Below, piece after piece: positions 48,924 through 61,247 of a stretch of DNA of 64,000 bases (the stretch's first letter is position 1; the number at the start of each line of letters is the position of its first letter). The position numbers and the translations under genes were made by a program. Below the pieces are notes generated by a model that was not told the DNA's origin, ran no database searches, and worked only from the letters and a program-made list of their open reading frames with translations. Origin of the DNA: Chryseobacterium gleum (lineage in GTDB: Bacteria; Bacteroidota; Bacteroidia; Flavobacteriales_D; Crocinitomicaceae); assembly GCA_945862165.1 (NCBI GenBank), contig CAMAXI010000010.1, forward strand, positions 1 to 64,000, given 5' to 3'.

Positions 48924-51161
48924 TTATTTTTCTAATTTCATCGCTAACGCATTATCGAAGATATCTTTCGCCTCGTGACAGAAACCATAATGTTCATCAT
49001 CAATAACAAATTTTCCTTTTGTTACGTGACCAAGCAAGGTGAAATTAACACCAGTTGTAAGCATATATTCAATAAATACTTCTTCTTGATCTTCAGACAA
49101 AGCTACTACTGCTCTACCTTGAGATTCTCCAAATAAGAAAGCATCTTCGCGTATCTCAGAATCTGTTACAATATCAAACCCTAATCCTCTTGGAAAAGAC
49201 ATTTCTGCTAACGTCACAAACAAACCGCCATCGGAACAATCGTGAACAGCATTTACGAGTCCGTTGTTGATTAATCCTTTAATCGATTGATGTAAAGCAT
49301 ATTCTTTCTCTAAATCAAAATGCGGAGCTGGTGAAGCTTGTATTTTATGGTAAGAAGCCAAATATTCAGATGAAGCAATATCTTCCACTGTATCTCCTAA
49401 AATAAAAATTAAATCTCCTTTTTGTTTAAAATCTAGGGTCATTAATTTAGATTTATCGGCTAAAACTCCAATCATACCAATTGTTGGTGTAGGAAATACA
49501 GGAACCTCAACCCCACCAATTACGGATTGATTATAAAAAGAAACATTTCCACCTGTAACAGGGGTAGCAAATTTTAAACAAGCTGTAGACATACCCTTAA
49601 TTGCACCAACAAATTGCCAATAAGATTCTGGATTATACGGATTTCCAAAATTCAAACAATTGGTGATAGCACTAGGTTCTCCACCTGAACATGTAATATT
49701 TCTAGCTGCTTCAGAAACAGCAATCATCGTACCAACTTCAGGGTCCGCATTCACATAGCGCGAGTTGCAATCTACTGTCATCGCTAATGCTTTGTTAGTC
49801 CCTTTAATATTAACAACACCCGCATCCGATGGTTGATTTGTCACCATGTTTTTAGTCCCAACCATCGAGTCGTATTGCTCATATACCCATCTTTTAGATG
49901 CAATATTTGGATGTTGTAATAAAAACATTGCAACTTCTTTTAAATCTTCAGGTTGTTGAACGTTATTAATATTGAATTTTTTATATTCTTGGTAATAAGC
50001 AGGTTCAGAATATTCACGTTGGTTTTGCGGAGCTCCTCCACCTAAAACTAATGATTCCGCTGGAACGTCTCCAACAATTTCACCATGCATGTGGTATCTA
50101 ACGCGACCAGTATCTGTAACTACACCAATTTCTTCCGCATGTAAATCCCATTTGTCAAAAATTGATTTTACAACTGCTTCCTCCCCTTTTTTAACAACTA
50201 CAAGCATTCTTTCTTGAGATTCAGACAATAAAATCTCATATGGTAACATATTTTCTTGTCTAGTTGGAACTTTATCTAAATAAATTTCCATTCCTACACC
50301 TCCACCAGCACTCATTTCACAGGTTGAACAAGTAATTCCTGCAGCACCCATATCTTGCATTCCAACAATCGCATTTGTTTCCGCTAATTCCATAGTAGCT
50401 TCTAACAACAATTTTTCTTGAAATGGATCCCCCACTTGAACAGATGGTAAATCGGAAGCTGAATCTTCCGTAATATCTTTCGAAGCAAAAGCTGCTCCAG
50501 CAATACCGTCTTTACCAGTTGCAGAACCAACAATATAAACAGGATTTCCTGGGCCTTTCGCCTTCGCTGAAATAACTTTTTTTGTATCGATTAGTCCAGC
50601 TGAAAAAGCATTAACTAATGGATTTTGATTATAGGAACTATCAAAGAATACTTCTCCACCAACAATTGGAATACCGAATGAATTTCCGTAATCACCAATC
50701 CCCTTTACAACCCCTTTTACTAACCACTTTGTACGTTCTGAATCAATATCTCCAAAACGTAAAGAATTTAATTGGGCAATAGGTCGCGCTCCCATGGTAA
50801 AAATATCACGATTAATCCCTCCAACACCTGTAGCAGCGCCTTGATAAGGCTCTAGGGCACTTGGATGATTATGTGACTCTATTTTAAAAACACAACCAAT
50901 CCCATCTCCTAAATCAACAAGTCCAGCATTTTCCTCACCTGCTTTCACTAACATATGTGGCCCATCTTTCGGTAATTGTTTCAACCAAAAAATAGAATTT
51001 TTATAGGAACAGTGTTCCGACCACATTACAGAATATACACTTGTTTCTGTGAAATTTGGAGTTCGACCTAGAATTTTCTTAATCATTTCAAATTCGTCAG
51101 CGCGTAATCCAAGTTCAATCGCTTGTTCTACTGTTGCTTCTTGATGTAAAGTACTTTCCAT
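48924..51161 (-). CDS. purL: Phosphoribosylformylglycinamidine synthase subunit PurL
   Basis: Makes FGAM from FGAR, glutamine-derived ammonia and ATP in purine synthesis. 745 aa from the ATG at 51161 ([19 protein letters not shown]). The track start adds 18 residues that overlap the promoter. It is the small PurL of the PurL/PurQ/PurS system: [60 protein letters not shown] and [17 protein letters not shown] are visible. No PurQ-type glutaminase domain is fused, so purQ and purS should be elsewhere. Confidence 0.96.
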
Positions 51162-51181
51162 GCTTATGTTTTTAAGAGTAA

Positions 51182-51215
51182 CAAAAATACACATATAGTA
51201 TTTTAATGCTACCAA
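51182..51215 (-). promoter_or_regulatory. purL promoter
   Basis: On the minus strand TTG (51213-51215), a 23-nt spacer and TATTTTTG (51182-51189) precede the ATG by 20 nt. Both boxes fit the consensus at the long end of its spacing range. Confidence 0.6.
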
Positions 51216-51272: not shown

Positions 51273-51280
51273 TAACTTTG
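51273..51280 (+). promoter_or_regulatory. Promoter -7 element of the tandem membrane-protein operon
   Basis: TAACTTTG fits TAnnTTTG. Its last three bases are the TTG used as start by the ORF track; a GTG 15 nt downstream (51296) has the normal leader distance. Confidence 0.5.
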
Positions 51281-51295
51281 AAAAAAATTAAAGTT

Positions 51296-52717
51296 GTGGA
51301 ATACTTCATCTTTCTTATTAGTATCATCGGTTTTTCTACCCTTATAATTAAAACCCAAGCTTTTAAAACAGATGATGTTTCGCTAAAATTCATCGTATTA
51401 TCTTTTCTTTTTAAACTAATTTCAGGAATAGCACTTTGGTATATTTACACCTATTATTATTCAGATACATCTGTAAATGATATTTATAAATACTTTATAG
51501 ATGGTAAACAATTAGCGAACATCTTTAAAAACAATCCGTCTGACTTCATCGCCATTCTTCGAGGTAAAAACATTGAAAATCAACAAAATATTCTACTATT
51601 TAAAGAAATGATTTTTTGGGTTAAACCAAACTCCTACGGATTTTATAATGACAACCAAACAATTATTATACTATCCAGTTTTTTAAATTTAATATCAAAT
51701 AACAATCTGCTTATTGCAATTTTATACATGAGTTGTATTTCATTTACAGCAACATTTACATTGTATAAAACACTGTCCCCATATTTAGAATGGAAAAAAA
51801 TATTTTATCTAATATTATTTCTCTCTCCTTCTATTGCATTATGGACAACTGGATTACTTAAAGAAACAATCATTTTATGTTCACTGACCATTGTTATCTA
51901 TTTTACCGTAAAATTAATTACTAAAATAAATACTTTAAACATAGTTGGTTTTGTTGTAGGCCTTCTATTATTATTACTATCAAAACCTTACCTTTTTGGT
52001 TTTATACTACCATCGGTTTTATGTTTTGGCATTATAAAACTATTTAAAACAACACGTATTAAACTAGTGTTTTTCTCGACTTATGCATTTTTTTTAGTGT
52101 CATTTATAACATGGAGCTATACACACAATCCCGTTATTTACAATTTCAAAAACAAAACAGAAATAGAAAAAAGAAATGAATACAAACGGGTCAACCATAT
52201 TTCTTATGAAAAGAATGTACTTGGGAATAATTACAATATTCTAGAGATGTTACGCTTCAAGCAGGCTGATTATAAACATGAAGCAAGATTAGCAAAAGCA
52301 AAAAGTTTAATCTCCACAAAGAAATTGGATGGACAATTATCCAATTTCTTTGCGTGTCTGCCTTATGGGTTAAGCAACGGATTTGCAAGACCACATTTAT
52401 TAGAATTACATGCTTCAAAACTAATTTTACCCGCATTAGAAAACTTTTTATGTATAATACTTGTTTTGCTCATGGTTCTTTTTCCAAGAAAATTAAATAT
52501 TGAACAGCGATTTCTTGTATTTTACTTGGGTACTTTTATCGTCATTACTTTTATTTTTTTAGGATTATTAGTACCTGTAATAGGTAATTTAGTACGATAT
52601 AAAGCACCTTTATTACCACTATTGTTTTTTTGTTTGTTAACTCTAATTGACAAGTCGAAAGCTAACATATTTTATAAAAAAACGTTTCAACGTATTCAAA
52701 CCCTCTTTCAAAAATAA
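51296..52717 (+). CDS. Multi-pass membrane protein, unknown family (tandem copy 1)
   Basis: 473 aa from GTG 51296 (MEYFIFLIS...); the TTG at 51278 is the alternative. About ten hydrophobic helices. Conserved blocks shared with the next gene: YIYTYYYSD...DIYKYF near the N-terminus, FWVKPNSYGFYNDN, PSIALWTTGLLKETI, a soluble loop of ~80 aa with RFKQADY, then NGFARPHLLE, ENFL and VPVIGNLVRYKAPLLP near the end. No named domain is recognised. The W..G.LKE and RYK.P..P features and helix count recall polysaccharide polymerase or GT-C-like integral membrane proteins; that is speculation. It is 2 nt upstream of its paralogue in a three-gene operon and looks more AT-rich than its neighbours. Confidence 0.8.
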   Translation: MEYFIFLISIIGFSTLIIKTQAFKTDDVSLKFIVLSFLFKLISGIALWYIYTYYYSDTSVNDIYKYFIDGKQLANIFKNNPSDFIAILRGKNIENQQNILLFKEMIFWVKPNSYGFYNDNQTIIILSSFLNLISNNNLLIAILYMSCISFTATFTLYKTLSPYLEWKKIFYLILFLSPSIALWTTGLLKETIILCSLTIVIYFTVKLITKINTLNIVGFVVGLLLLLLSKPYLFGFILPSVLCFGIIKLFKTTRIKLVFFSTYAFFLVSFITWSYTHNPVIYNFKNKTEIEKRNEYKRVNHISYEKNVLGNNYNILEMLRFKQADYKHEARLAKAKSLISTKKLDGQLSNFFACLPYGLSNGFARPHLLELHASKLILPALENFLCIILVLLMVLFPRKLNIEQRFLVFYLGTFIVITFIFLGLLVPVIGNLVRYKAPLLPLLFFCLLTLIDKSKANIFYKKTFQRIQTLFQK

Positions 52718-52719
52718 AA

Positions 52720-54039
52720 ATGCATTCTATTTTAGAACTTTCCTGTGTCCTTTTCTATTATTCAATGCTATTATTGATCCTAAAAAAATGGTCTTTTTTT
52801 AAAAATTCAGGAATTCCATTCAAAACATTAGGTCTATTATTCACACTCAAATTTATTTTTGGATTAAGTCTCTATTTCATTTATACCTATTATTATACAG
52901 ACCGAAAAACAGCGGACATTTTTAAATATTTTGATGATGCAAAATATCTTTACGAAAATGTATATAAAATTTCACCAATCCAGTTTTGGAAAATAATCTT
53001 TGGAATTCAAAATCAATCCGCTGAAATACATAATTTATTAGTTAAAACGAATTATTGGTTCAAACCTTTTACAAGCAATGTTTTTAACGATAATACAACT
53101 ATAATTCGATTTAATGCAGTAATTTATCTTTTTTCTTTTGGTTGTTATCATGTACACACATTGGTATTATCAATGCTTTCATTTATAGGGTTAACTAGTA
53201 TTTTTAGAATATATAGTGAAAAATTTAGCACACGCAAAACAGAACTAATAATTGCCTGTTTTCTAATTCCTTCCTTATTGTTTTGGGGGTCAGGTGTATT
53301 AAAAGAAAGTATTTTATTATTTGGAATTGGCGTATTTCTTTTTGCTTTTACACGACTTATTTATACAAAAAACAAAAGCTTATACATTGGCATAATTGTT
53401 CTAACGATAGGTCTATTAGCAATTACAAAAACCTATGTGCTAATATTGTTGATTCCTAGTATATTTTCCTGGATTTTATCGCATTACACAAAGACAAAAA
53501 AAGTGGGATTAGTATTTATCTTATTTAATATTGGACTAATGATAATTGCTTTCAACGTAGGGAAAATTGATGCTAGACTTGACTTTCTATCGGACTTAAA
53601 ATACAAACAGAAAGATTTTATAAATGTTGCTAATTACACAAAAGCAGGCAGTACAATTCATGTAAAAGCGCTCACCAATTCTTCTTGGTCATTTGTAAAA
53701 ACGATGCCAGAAGCATTTATTAATGGGTTACTTCGCCCCACGATATTTGAAATAAAAAACGTGTTTTTTGCGTTCTCAGCATTTGAAAATTTCAGCATTT
53801 TAGTCCTTATTCTTCTTGTAATTCTATTTTTTAAAAAGCCGACTCGCGCGCAACTTCCATACCTCTATTTTGGCATCTACTTTAGTGTGTTATTATCGAT
53901 ACTAATCGGCTGGACAGTTCCTGTACTTGGGGCTATTGTAAGATATAAAATTCCCTGTTTACCATTTGCATTCAGTTCCTTATTACTTTGCATAGACTTT
54001 CCCAAATTAAAAAATTATCTTAAAAAACAGATACAATGA
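52720..54039 (+). CDS. Multi-pass membrane protein, unknown family (tandem copy 2)
   Basis: 439 aa, about ten membrane helices. It is clearly homologous to the preceding gene over its whole length: FIYTYYYTD...DIFKYFDDAK, YWFKPFTSNVFNDNTTII, PSLLFWGSGVLKESI, LKYKQKDF, NGLLRPTIFE, AFENFSILV and VPVLGAIVRYKIPCLP. The two copies are diverged, so this is an old duplication. The invariant residues (YTYYY, Asp, FxxK/N, LKES, RP, ENF, VRYK, P) probably mark the active or transport site. The downstream lipoprotein overlaps it by 4 nt (ATGA), so translation is coupled. Confidence 0.8.
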   Translation: MHSILELSCVLFYYSMLLLILKKWSFFKNSGIPFKTLGLLFTLKFIFGLSLYFIYTYYYTDRKTADIFKYFDDAKYLYENVYKISPIQFWKIIFGIQNQSAEIHNLLVKTNYWFKPFTSNVFNDNTTIIRFNAVIYLFSFGCYHVHTLVLSMLSFIGLTSIFRIYSEKFSTRKTELIIACFLIPSLLFWGSGVLKESILLFGIGVFLFAFTRLIYTKNKSLYIGIIVLTIGLLAITKTYVLILLIPSIFSWILSHYTKTKKVGLVFILFNIGLMIIAFNVGKIDARLDFLSDLKYKQKDFINVANYTKAGSTIHVKALTNSSWSFVKTMPEAFINGLLRPTIFEIKNVFFAFSAFENFSILVLILLVILFFKKPTRAQLPYLYFGIYFSVLLSILIGWTVPVLGAIVRYKIPCLPFAFSSLLLCIDFPKLKNYLKKQIQ

Positions 54040-55076
54040 GACTAACAAACATGAATTATTTTATCCTTTGCCTAAGCGTTCTTCTAACTAGCTGTATGAA
54101 AGGTAAAAAAGTAGACCAATTGTTTCACAATGCATCGATTATTTGTTTAGATGATAATAACACCACAGGCGAAGCGATGGCAATAAAGAATGGAAAAATT
54201 GTTGAAATTGGTCCTGAACGCCAAATATTGAACAAGTATCGATCCGAAGAAACAATTGACGTTGAAGGAAGAGAAATAGTGCCAACTTTTTCGGATTGCA
54301 ACATGCATTTGGATTCAACAATAAAATTAAATACAACCATACTAGAAGAATTTGAAACACAAGAACTCGAACAAGGAATTATAGAAGTTTTTGTTCATGG
54401 AATAAGCTATAAACAACTCATTGAACTTGTCAAATTCTCTTCTAAAATGGAGGTATTATGGCACATTTATTTAATCCCCTCAAAACAGAATATTCAGTAT
54501 GTAAGAAGACTAAAAAAAATAAAAAATAAAAATCTTACGATAGCAGGATTCACGCTTTCAAACGAAGAAGAATCAACTGTTTTAGAAGCTTGTTCAATTG
54601 CTAAAAACAAGTTATTACAAATTGGTCTTGATTTCAAAAATGGGCAAAAAAACATACCAAAAATTATACAATCACTTCAAAGCCATAAACAAGATCATCG
54701 ATGGTTTGTATTCAATATCGATGAAAATCAAACTAATGCATTAAAATTATTAGAAGAAAATAATTTTTTTCTTTGTTTTAACGAAACAAATAGAGCTTCA
54801 CTTCCGATTTATACATTTGGTTCAGGAAGTACAAAGCATGGCTTATTAGATAGACTAAAAAAATATAGCCATTTAAATGGATTAGAATTATTAACAACCC
54901 TAAAATCAATAACAAATTGGGCGCAATATGTATCCTATTCGGAAAGAAAAAATGGAACACTTGAAAAAGGTAAAAATGCAAATTTTACAATTTTAGAAAC
55001 TCCTATTAATAATAGCGGTCCTATTTACGCAAACACAACTTTTTTGAACGGAAAAAAAATATATAGTATAGAATAA
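54036..55076 (+). CDS. Lipoprotein, degenerate YtcJ-like amidohydrolase
   Basis: 346 aa. A lipoprotein signal (lipobox LTSC near residues 18-21) is followed by the N-terminal beta-sandwich of amidohydrolases: DQLFHNASIICLDD, AMAIKNGKIVEIG, IDVEGREIVPTFSDCNMHLDS. The C-terminus returns to that sandwich with NGTLEKGKNANFTILE and FLNGKKIYS. The metal-binding HxH is replaced by NMH, and I see no further His/Asp ligands. The chain is ~200 aa shorter than typical YtcJ (~540 aa). It therefore looks like a reduced pseudoenzyme, intact as an ORF. An outer-membrane or inner-membrane binding role with the two membrane proteins is inferred from the 4-nt overlap. Confidence 0.7.
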   Translation: MRLTNMNYFILCLSVLLTSCMKGKKVDQLFHNASIICLDDNNTTGEAMAIKNGKIVEIGPERQILNKYRSEETIDVEGREIVPTFSDCNMHLDSTIKLNTTILEEFETQELEQGIIEVFVHGISYKQLIELVKFSSKMEVLWHIYLIPSKQNIQYVRRLKKIKNKNLTIAGFTLSNEEESTVLEACSIAKNKLLQIGLDFKNGQKNIPKIIQSLQSHKQDHRWFVFNIDENQTNALKLLEENNFFLCFNETNRASLPIYTFGSGSTKHGLLDRLKKYSHLNGLELLTTLKSITNWAQYVSYSERKNGTLEKGKNANFTILETPINNSGPIYANTTFLNGKKIYSIE

Positions 55077-58311: not shown

Positions 58312-59310
58312 GTGAAACTAAAAATTTACATATCAATCTTTTTAATCATCCCTATAATTGGTTATACACAAGATATACATTGGTCACAAACAAACGAAAA
58401 TGCACTTTATCAAAATCCCGCAAATAGTGGGTTTATGTCCGAAGATTATAGAATAACTTTAAGTACCAGAGATCAGTGGAGAAATGTTACAAAACCATTT
58501 CAGACACAAGCATTTACTTTTGATATGGTAAACAAATTCAATCGTAAATTAGCATATGGAGGAAGTATATTACACGATGTTACAGGCGATGGTATATTTA
58601 GAACAATTGAAGGACGTATAAATGTTGCGTATACTTTTCTTGAAGCTAAAAATCAAAAAGATAAACTTAGAATTGGTCTAGATATAGGTTGGAAAAATAA
58701 TCAAATGAACTTTTCCAACTACATGTTTGATAATCAATTTGATGGATTTATTTATTCTAGTTATATTGCAAGCAATGAAAAATATACTACACAACAAAAA
58801 TCAAATTTAAATGTAGGAACTGGTCTACTTTTCAATAAAGAAATTTCCGATAAATTTTCATTTGTTGTTGGGACTGCTATATTCAATATTAATAAACCAA
58901 ATCAAGGCTTTTATAATGATAATGTACCTCGATATAGAAGATTTAATAATTACATTCAAGGGATATGGTCGATAAACAATAAAATGAAAATTTATCCTAC
59001 TATCAATTTCACAAATCAAAATTCGTATTCAGAAATAATTATTGGCACTAAATGCACTATAAACCTGTCGAATACAAATAAGAAAAATGATCTCTTGTTT
59101 GGAATTTATTCCCGAAACAAAGACGCTTTATTAACGCAAATAGGTTTGAAAATAAACAGATTAACAACATCTATTAATTACGATGTGAATACTTCTAAAT
59201 TAGTAAAGGCCAGTAATGGAAGAGGTGCCTTAGAGATTAATATCCAATACCTTTGGTCGCGAAAACCAGAAAATAACTTAATGCATAAAAAATGTTTAGA
59301 TTATTTATAA
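58312..59310 (+). CDS. PorP/SprF family T9SS-associated outer-membrane protein
   Basis: 332 aa starting at GTG (58312); no nearby in-frame ATG gives the signal peptide MKLKIYISIFLIIPIIGYTQ. The mature start DIHWSQTNENALYQNPANSGFM is the hallmark of PorP/SprF, followed by RDQWRNVTKPFQTQAFTFD and an outer-membrane beta-barrel ending in LWSRK. SprF-type proteins help secrete or anchor SprB-like adhesins, and PorP is part of the T9SS attachment complex with PorE. It overlaps the next gene, a PorE-like protein, by 19 nt. No SprB-like giant gene is adjacent. A near-consensus TATCTTTA lies ~14 nt before the start. Confidence 0.88.
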   Translation: MKLKIYISIFLIIPIIGYTQDIHWSQTNENALYQNPANSGFMSEDYRITLSTRDQWRNVTKPFQTQAFTFDMVNKFNRKLAYGGSILHDVTGDGIFRTIEGRINVAYTFLEAKNQKDKLRIGLDIGWKNNQMNFSNYMFDNQFDGFIYSSYIASNEKYTTQQKSNLNVGTGLLFNKEISDKFSFVVGTAIFNINKPNQGFYNDNVPRYRRFNNYIQGIWSINNKMKIYPTINFTNQNSYSEIIIGTKCTINLSNTNKKNDLLFGIYSRNKDALLTQIGLKINRLTTSINYDVNTSKLVKASNGRGALEINIQYLWSRKPENNLMHKKCLDYL

Positions 59311-61247
59311 TAGTACTTTTTTTAAATTTATCAATTGTTGTTTTAGGGCAAACAAGTAAACGCATATTAAAATACCGCGCGCAACAAAATATTGAACAAG
59401 AAGATTATATAGAAGCGGCAAAATATTATGACTCAATTGTCCAAAGAGATAGTACTGATTATCAAACATTACAAACATATTCGGAAATATTAATTAAAAC
59501 AAAGTATTTTGTTAAAGCCGATCTAATTTTAAAAAAAATAATCTCCTTATCGAATAAGCAAATAAATAAACAAAATCTATTATTACAACTCGCTTACGTA
59601 AACAAACAACTCGGAAAATATACGGAAGCATTAAATTATTTGAACAATTGTTCAAGCGAAATAAAAAAATCAAATGATTTAAAAGCATTAAACAAAGTAA
59701 CACGTGAAATAGAATCTTGTCAATGGGCAATGATGAACCTCACTGACACAGTAGAATATAGTATTCATAAAATACATGGTATTTCTAATGAAGATTCAGA
59801 ATTTGGCCATGCAGTGGTTGGTCCGCTTTTAATAGTAAGCGCCTTGAAATGCGAAAATTGCAATGACTCAATCGGATTTTCAAAAGAAGGATATACCAAT
59901 AAATTATATTCGATTTTAAAAGAAAATGGCAGTCAATTAAAAGAAATTAAATCCATTAACTCCAATATCAATCACAGTTCCAATGGTACTTTTTCTAGTG
60001 ATAAAAAGAAATTCTACTTCAGTTCTTGCGCTATTTTACCAGAAAATAAAAAATGTAAAATACTTGTAAGTAATTACATAAATGGCAGTTGGTCAACTCC
60101 TGACACCTTAAAAGGGGAAATTAATAGTAATGAATACGCTTATACAATGCCTGCATTTGCAAAAATACAAGGTAAGGATTATCTGTTTTTTTGCTCGGAT
60201 AATAAAAACAGTCAAGGTGGACTAGACATTTTTTATGGATCAATTAATCAAAACACGATTAAAGAAGTAAAACCAATAAATTATATTAACTCCATAGAAG
60301 ATGATATTGCTCCGTTTTATGATGACGCCACGTTAACCTTATATTTTTCTTCTATTTGGTTTAACGGATTCGGTGGATACGATTTACAGAAAACAAATTT
60401 CAAACCGAATAAAACAAGTAAAATTGAAAACCTAGGAATCCCTTTTAATAGTTCAAACAATGATACTTATTTGGTAAAAGATTCCATGAACTACTTCATC
60501 TCAAGTAACCGAAATCATGCATCTTTAAACAAGAATTGCTGTACAGATATATACCAATTAAAACCAAAATTTATTATTAATGAAACGATAAAAATAGACA
60601 CCACTTTTAATCGTTTGAAAGAGGTGACCAAAATTAATTCAGAAAAAAATATCGGAATATTAGAAAAACTAATACCAATATCACTCTACTTCCACAACGA
60701 TATTCCTAATCCAAAATCATCCGATTCGACTACTCATGTAAATTATTTAGAAACCTATGAAAATTATAACCAATTAAATACAGTTTATCAAACTAATTAT
60801 GGATCTGGATTAAAAGAAGAAAAGAAAAATATTGCCAAAATGGAAATAAATGAATTCTTCATCAACAATCTTCAAAAAGGCAAAAAAGATTTAGATGAAT
60901 TTTTAGATATTTTAGTGGAAGAACTTAAAAAAGGCGAGAAATTTGAACTAATATTTAAAGGTTACGCAAGTCCATTAGCTAAAAATGAGTATAACAAATT
61001 CCTGAGTAAACGCAGAATTAATTCTGTAAGAAATTACATAGCAATCTATAAAAATGGTATATTATTAAAATACTTAATCCCTGATATTAATAATACTACA
61101 GCTTTATCTTTCAAAGAGGAAAGTTTTGGAGAATTTTTATCCGATAAATTAGTTAGTGACAATCCAAATGACAAAAGAAATTCAATATATTCTAAAAAAG
61201 CAGCACTCGAACGAAAAGTAGAAATTATCGGATTTAGAATTCGATAA
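59292..61247 (+). CDS. PorE-like TPR/PD40-propeller/OmpA protein
   Basis: 651 aa. A signal peptide (MFRLFIIVLFLNLSIVVLGQ) precedes an N-terminal TPR region (about residues 20-150, YIEAAKYYDSIVQRD...). A beta-propeller with PD40-like repeats follows (about residues 160-420; GTFSSDKKKFYFSSC, DYLFFCSDNKNSQGGLDIFYG, LTLYFSSIWFNGFGGYDL). The C-terminal OmpA-like domain carries KGYASPLAKNEYNKFLSKRR. This order matches PorE of T9SS, without the carboxypeptidase-regulatory domain of PorE between propeller and OmpA. It probably links the PorP-like barrel to peptidoglycan. It overlaps the porP-like gene by 19 nt. Confidence 0.85.
   Translation: MFRLFIIVLFLNLSIVVLGQTSKRILKYRAQQNIEQEDYIEAAKYYDSIVQRDSTDYQTLQTYSEILIKTKYFVKADLILKKIISLSNKQINKQNLLLQLAYVNKQLGKYTEALNYLNNCSSEIKKSNDLKALNKVTREIESCQWAMMNLTDTVEYSIHKIHGISNEDSEFGHAVVGPLLIVSALKCENCNDSIGFSKEGYTNKLYSILKENGSQLKEIKSINSNINHSSNGTFSSDKKKFYFSSCAILPENKKCKILVSNYINGSWSTPDTLKGEINSNEYAYTMPAFAKIQGKDYLFFCSDNKNSQGGLDIFYGSINQNTIKEVKPINYINSIEDDIAPFYDDATLTLYFSSIWFNGFGGYDLQKTNFKPNKTSKIENLGIPFNSSNNDTYLVKDSMNYFISSNRNHASLNKNCCTDIYQLKPKFIINETIKIDTTFNRLKEVTKINSEKNIGILEKLIPISLYFHNDIPNPKSSDSTTHVNYLETYENYNQLNTVYQTNYGSGLKEEKKNIAKMEINEFFINNLQKGKKDLDEFLDILVEELKKGEKFELIFKGYASPLAKNEYNKFLSKRRINSVRNYIAIYKNGILLKYLIPDINNTTALSFKEESFGEFLSDKLVSDNPNDKRNSIYSKKAALERKVEIIGFRIR

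Follow-up and report, generated by a model that had tools for sequence, protein, structure and literature searches.

The GT-C glycosyltransferases follow a 1-6-4 plan of membrane helices with a cytoplasmic N-terminus, of which variants are known at the C-terminus and in the centre. Typical of the superfamily are two large luminal loops with six central helices in between, four luminal motif positions and an R-x(4-14)-P signature (PMC6801728). All GT-CA enzymes depend on an Asp in the first external loop, where it marks the tip of juxtamembrane helix 1 (JM1) (PMC12041299); PimE requires the corresponding Asp, the Tyr at +4 and a Lys that binds phosphate (PMC12041525). Also within GT-CA are the three-component enzymes of the GT136/GtrII type, which act in the periplasm and decorate surface glycans (PMC11127046). 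Polymerases, as far as they have been classified, belong to GT-CB or have no assignment (PMC10920833).

Here we describe two adjacent genes in a stretch of 64,000 nucleotides, which is called the window in the following (Table 1). Both are predicted, with good support from the fold and the catalytic positions, to code for GT-C glycosyltransferases that are embedded in the inner membrane and have a GT-CA-like fold. To our explanation as a whole, which includes this assignment, the mechanism, separate enzymes in tandem and the roles of the two clades of the family, we give a probability of about 0.88. An earlier, sequence-only reading had noticed ordered blocks shared over the full length of the two proteins (P0001 and P0002), and indeed they align end to end with 31% identity (E=3e-48); this likeness is far above chance and marks them, at the sequence level, as full-length paralogs. 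All of the motif blocks quoted in that reading were found, but PS..LW has to be written PS..[LF]W, with PS..FW in P0002. Its start for the first gene, GTG 51296, is the start position seen in the ortholog L095. Both genes are under purifying selection (dN/dS 0.15 for P0001, 0.10-0.24 for P0002), and the 3' end of P0002 shares an ATGA overlap with the third gene, which encodes a shrunken amidohydrolase lipoprotein.

Table 1. Genes and predicted active-site codons of the locus in window positions; conservation counts refer to 123 sequences from both clades, in P0002 numbering
Feature	Position	Strand	Remarks
purL (FGAM synthase)	48924..51215	-	named from sequence; divergent conserved neighbour marking the clade II locus
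First paralog (P0001)	51278..52717	+	479 aa from TTG 51278, 473 aa from GTG 51296; GT-C type membrane protein, clade II
Asp68 codon, P0001	51479..51481	+	counterpart of the catalytic Asp in GT-C enzymes, at the JM1 tip; invariant; model helix starts at 68
Lys195-Glu196 codons, P0001	51860..51865	+	luminal loop 2 motif
Lys236 codon, P0001	51983..51985	+	luminal loop 3 motif
Arg440 codon, P0001	52595..52597	+	Arg of last luminal loop (R...P motif)
Second paralog (P0002)	52720..54039	+	439 aa; GT-C type membrane protein, clade II; copy nearest to the single gene of other families
Asp66 codon, P0002	52915..52917	+	proposed catalytic Asp, 123/123; Tyr/Phe at +4 (position 70), 123/123; aligned to EL1 Asp of PMT_2
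Lys195-Glu196 codons, P0002	53302..53307	+	luminal loop 2 motif; K 122/123, E/D 123/123
Lys237 codon, P0002	53428..53430	+	luminal loop 3 motif; K/R 123/123; aligned to conserved Lys of PMT_2 'tKg' motif
Arg408-Tyr409-Lys410 codons, P0002	53941..53949	+	RYK of last luminal loop, then P412 and P415; R/K408 123/123
YtcJ-type amidohydrolase lipoprotein, shrunken	54036..55076	+	346 aa compared with ~545, without catalytic motifs; overlaps P0002; conserved clade II neighbour

Members of the family were found in 51 of 59 close relatives and in 16 of 198 genomes drawn evenly across the Bacteroidota. A GTDB scan yielded 329 relatives, of which 80 were kept, and within the scans made the family occurs in Bacteroidota only. 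It is a coherent family of at least several hundred Bacteroidota homologs, nameless in Pfam and NCBIfam. The maximum-likelihood tree resolves two deep clades, I and II (a clade of 24 has 100/100 support). The genome of the window itself holds four members; besides the pair, one lies on contig C15 and another on C4, the latter beside polysaccharide genes as read from sequence. By label, all of the 80 relatives kept belong to the Bacteroidota except one MAG labelled Actinomycetota. On its contig (L122, CALPOI020000200.1; deposited as 'Candidatus Planktophila lacus'), purL is accompanied by a tandem of three family genes that closely resemble the genes of a relative from the Bacteroidota (L040/L103); the contig is probably mis-binned or mislabelled.

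The sequence-only reading knew of no named domain that fits, and this was right: neither P0001 nor P0002 matched Pfam or NCBIfam even at E<=10, and scans of 27 and 74 relatives gave few, scattered weak matches. Two of the 74 relatives matched PMT_2 (PF13231; best E 1.1e-5), one relative matched GtrII at 5e-4 and three matched Wzy_C (best 4.6e-3). Since no Pfam or NCBIfam model exists, automatic annotation has no basis for naming these proteins. Searching PDB sequences with the family profile returned only a chance match to a ribosomal protein, viral contigs and a viral structure library gave nothing significant, and no earlier description of the family was found in the open-licence literature. 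GtrII members, sought as a comparison set, were found neither in the phylum nor in the control genomes.

The same reading had likened the proteins to oligosaccharide polymerases or GT-C enzymes and proposed a profile comparison with both. By hhalign, in which PMT_2 was represented by a profile made from members of the class, the family matches PMT_2 with 79.6% (E=1.5e-5) and EpsG (PF14897) with 63-85% over a partial stretch of ~95 columns, compared with 0.3-0.9% for Wzy_C (PF04932) and at most 1.1% for the controls (Wzy_C, an amino-acid permease and reversed profiles). With clade I alone the values were 52% for PMT_2, 14% for EpsG, 2.2% for Wzy_C and 1.7% for the permease, the last two being the highest controls. 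D66 and K237 of P0002 are placed on conserved residues of PMT_2 (Table 1), and K195-E196 near its conserved Asp. As to membership, the window proteins stay below the Pfam threshold of PMT_2, do not match EpsG over its whole domain and do not match Wzy_C.

AlphaFold2 gave confident models, the first protein with a pLDDT of 91.8 and a pTM of 0.91, and the second with 95.6 and 0.94. In the P0002 model, with membrane helices assigned from helix lengths and charge, TM1 (2-23) and TM2 (34-57) come first, and residues 58-143 then form a large loop on the periplasmic side that contains short helices. The six helices of the centre span 143-282, and after another large loop (283-347) the chain ends in three helices. 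Measured against the 1-6-4 plan, the centre has its six helices, but there is an additional helix at the N-terminus and the C-terminal bundle has three helices where the plan has four, both of which are unusual. In 74 sequences, the loops assigned as cytoplasmic are positive in net charge; the polar positions that are invariant lie on or near the opposite, periplasmic face (D66, N123-D124, W189, K195-E196, K237-Y239, K296-Q297; further S311, P340, E356 and R408-Y409). A positive charge is likewise found at the C-terminal RYK turn, in keeping with a phosphate site.

When both models were compared with the PDB by Foldseek, every match at a probability of at least 0.4 was a GT-C enzyme, while other proteins reached at most 0.10. 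P0002 matched ArnT (1.00), AftB (0.95), STT3 (0.89 and 0.66), Pmt1-Pmt2 (0.69-0.72) and Pmt4 (0.57-0.60), and P0001 matched STT3 (0.99/0.94/0.93), DPY19 (0.93 and 0.84), EmbC (0.51) and PglB (0.47). Both models therefore resemble solved GT-CA enzymes, but with best E-values of 0.06-0.08, TM-scores of 0.37-0.40 and an rmsd of 10 Å or more for the top matches the similarity is remote, and such fold matches alone are insufficient for an assignment. The residues agree with the fold. In the P0002 model D66 is the first residue of helix 66-82, directly after the membrane helix 34-57, as expected for the JM1 Asp, and K195-E/D196, K/R237 and R/K408...P415 occupy luminal loops 2, 3 and the last loop. 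P0001 retains every one of these near-invariant positions.

From the position and invariance of these residues we infer a putative mechanism. A polyprenyl-phosphate(-phosphate)-linked sugar donor would be used on the periplasmic face, where Lys195, Lys237 and Arg408 (Lys195, Lys236 and Arg440 in P0001) may hold the lipid phosphate and the sugar. Asp66 (Asp68 in P0001), at the tip of the first periplasmic helix, would act as the base that activates the hydroxyl group of a presumed acceptor.

Among described systems, the PMT_2/ArnT-type enzymes (GT39, GT83) come close, as ArnT is the best structural match of P0002 and the PMT_2 profile match is accompanied by a shared Asp at the catalytic position with Tyr at +4, a loop 3 Lys and R...P in the last loop. 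Unlike them, the window proteins have no Pfam match, an extra N-terminal helix precedes the core, the C-terminal periplasmic domain is absent and the family has motifs of its own (PSxxxWxSGxLKE, KQxD, NGxxRP, RYKxP). STT3/PglB (GT66) and the DPY19 C-mannosyltransferases share the same four luminal motif positions (PMC6801728), and STT3 and DPY19 are the top structural matches of P0001 (0.93-0.99); however, their eight central helices compare with six in the family, which also lacks a soluble domain at the C-terminus and has no PDB sequence match. The similarity to EpsG extends over TM3-TM6, and a similar role is proposed below for clade I, but the aligned stretch leaves out the catalytic Asp and the EpsG-type proteins found here have 340-388 aa. 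Wzy_C/WaaL and SEDS proteins (GT-CB) are likewise periplasmic, multi-pass and dependent on polyprenyl-linked donors; the family shows no profile similarity to them and has its first large loop near the N-terminus, and none of them is among the structure matches listed. The one GtrII match links the family to GT136/GtrII-type enzymes, whereas neither a GtrB-like nor a flippase partner was recognised among the neighbour families at the clade II locus.

The genomic context differs between the clades. Neighbourhoods were counted within 15 kb in 23 genomes (24 clade I and 26 clade II loci), with Wzy_C as the sole polymerase family searched and with draft contig ends limiting the count. The Wzx flippase (PF01943) was found at 8 of the 24 clade I loci compared with 0.9 expected, a number that 0 of 200,000 simulations reached, and Wzy_C at none of the 24. 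In several of the Wzx-linked stretches (~14 kb) the clade I protein is, by hydropathy count, the only multi-pass protein besides the flippase. Judged from this context, clade I most likely provides a candidate polymerase for Wzx-type clusters without a recognised Wzy. Two clade I genes (L090:7868-8719 and L094:5572-6423) lie directly beside an ABC-2 exporter (PF01061 for L094, with which L090 clusters). At ABC-2 exporter loci no Wzy is expected, so decorating transferases may occur within clade I, which suggests more than one role for this clade. Beside another clade I gene, L084:4966-6510 encodes a multi-pass protein of 514 aa with a GT-C-like 'PDEMRYF' motif and no Pfam match; by this motif it perhaps represents another unnamed GT-C family.

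At the clade II loci, neither Wzx nor Wzy_C was found within 15 kb (0 of 26). In several families these loci share a neighbourhood of divergent purL, an SDR, a YtcJ-type amidohydrolase, an acyl-CoA ligase and rsmG. The neighbours purL, SDR, amidohydrolase and acyl-CoA ligase include no glycan genes and are uninformative on the substrate; clade II would act outside large polysaccharide clusters.

Of the alternatives, it is highly improbable that the window proteins are multi-pass transporters or flippases: although they are multi-pass proteins whose role as enzymes is a prediction, and transporters do appear in the Foldseek lists, these reach probabilities of at most 0.10 compared with 0.9-1.0 for GT-C enzymes, and the invariant Asp, Lys, Glu and Arg residues all lie on one face, in published GT-C positions. 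From two different copies side by side, the sequence-only reading had considered a heterodimer or two related substrates and asked whether the tandem is conserved. It is: two or three family genes stand next to each other in 13 of 13 genomes of the genus searched, and adjoin divergent purL wherever the flank was read. This adjacency, together with Pmt1-Pmt2 among the structural matches of P0002, would agree with an obligate heterodimer of the Pmt1-Pmt2 kind. Outside the genus, however, most relatives have one gene at the purL locus, so that no heterodimer needs to be assumed; within the genus some genomes carry three copies, and the invariant residues are complete in each paralog. We therefore found the heterodimer idea unsupported; it is unlikely for this pair, and as a general property it was rejected because most relatives are single-copy at the locus. 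In the tree the single genes of other families cluster with the second gene, and the first gene and the third copy stand together in a clade apart. This third copy is missing from 7 of 13 genomes of the genus and is the most drifted one (R408 changed to K in some, R339 changed). Duplication and diversification explain this pattern better than an obligate complex does, and the tandem copies are probably separate enzymes with related specificities. Retention of the full invariant set by both window paralogs fits two active enzymes of this kind.

A further question is what such enzymes transfer. The window proteins themselves could polymerise or ligate polysaccharides (Wzy/WaaL-like), with lipid-PP-oligosaccharides as substrates, instead of transferring monosaccharides, in line with the linkage of sister clade I to Wzx without a nearby Wzy_C, with the EpsG profile similarity and with lipid-PP donors that occur in GT-CA too (GT66, PMC10920833). 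We consider this doubtful for clade II itself, as its loci lie away from Wzx and Wzy_C, similarity to Wzy_C is at background level and neither WaaL nor RodA is among the structure matches listed. Of the two possibilities named in the sequence-only reading, GT-C enzyme or oligosaccharide polymerase, the former is well supported by the fold and the predicted catalytic residues, and the latter is a reading of the genomic context of sister clade I. Nor do we expect clade II to serve the type IX secretion system (T9SS), e.g. by anchoring secreted proteins to a lipopolysaccharide: the family is restricted to Bacteroidota in the scans made and T9SS-type genes, their family guessed from sequence, lie nearby in the window (58312-61247), but GldM is present in eight of eight relatives without any family member, which makes such a link very unlikely. 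At 58312-61247 the gene for a PorP/SprF-like outer membrane protein precedes one for a protein of the OmpA/PD40 type, which from sequence we take to be a typical T9SS/gliding-associated pair.

With both genes read as GT-C glycosyltransferases, candidate polymerases become available for Bacteroidota surface-polysaccharide clusters that have a flippase and no Wzy_C, and a conserved, unstudied glycosylation step is indicated at the purL locus. If clade I is indeed a polymerase, polymerisation would take place on a GT-CA active site, in contrast to the GT-CB or unassigned polymerases classified so far. Tentatively, and with less than even odds, we go one step further: the family may be new to GT-C at the level of CAZy families, with a GT-CA-type active site (Asp at the JM1 tip) that has turned polymerase. 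Clade I would then be the Wzy that many Bacteroidota Wzx clusters lack, and clade II, with the duplicated window genes, a conserved housekeeping glycosyltransferase of a surface glycoconjugate.

Some variation was seen around the clade II genes and within the family. In the amidohydrolase next to P0002 the HxH, GDGA.GS, downstream His and GTDFP motifs are gone; across the genus it is shortened to varying degrees (445, 427-429, 375 and 343-350 aa). With a dN/dS of 0.14, indicating purifying selection, and a lipobox present, it is possibly a repurposed non-catalytic lipoprotein. In the single-copy clade II proteins from other genera of the family (L042-L054) the second large periplasmic loop is longer by ~85 residues, which follow KQ.D..NV (e.g. 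'GGIFFITDSSFCAF') and are absent in the window copies; this insert may perhaps be an acceptor-binding element. An N-terminal fusion region of ~600 aa occurs in five members (L082, L083, L091, L106, L117), among them the C15 copy of the window's own genome (L082:5939-9043; PF13229, 5e-9). In the two that were scanned (L082 and L106) it is a right-handed parallel beta-helix matching PF13229 and, more weakly, DUF1565, NosD or chondroitinase B, so that these fusions combine the GT-C core with a polysaccharide-type domain.
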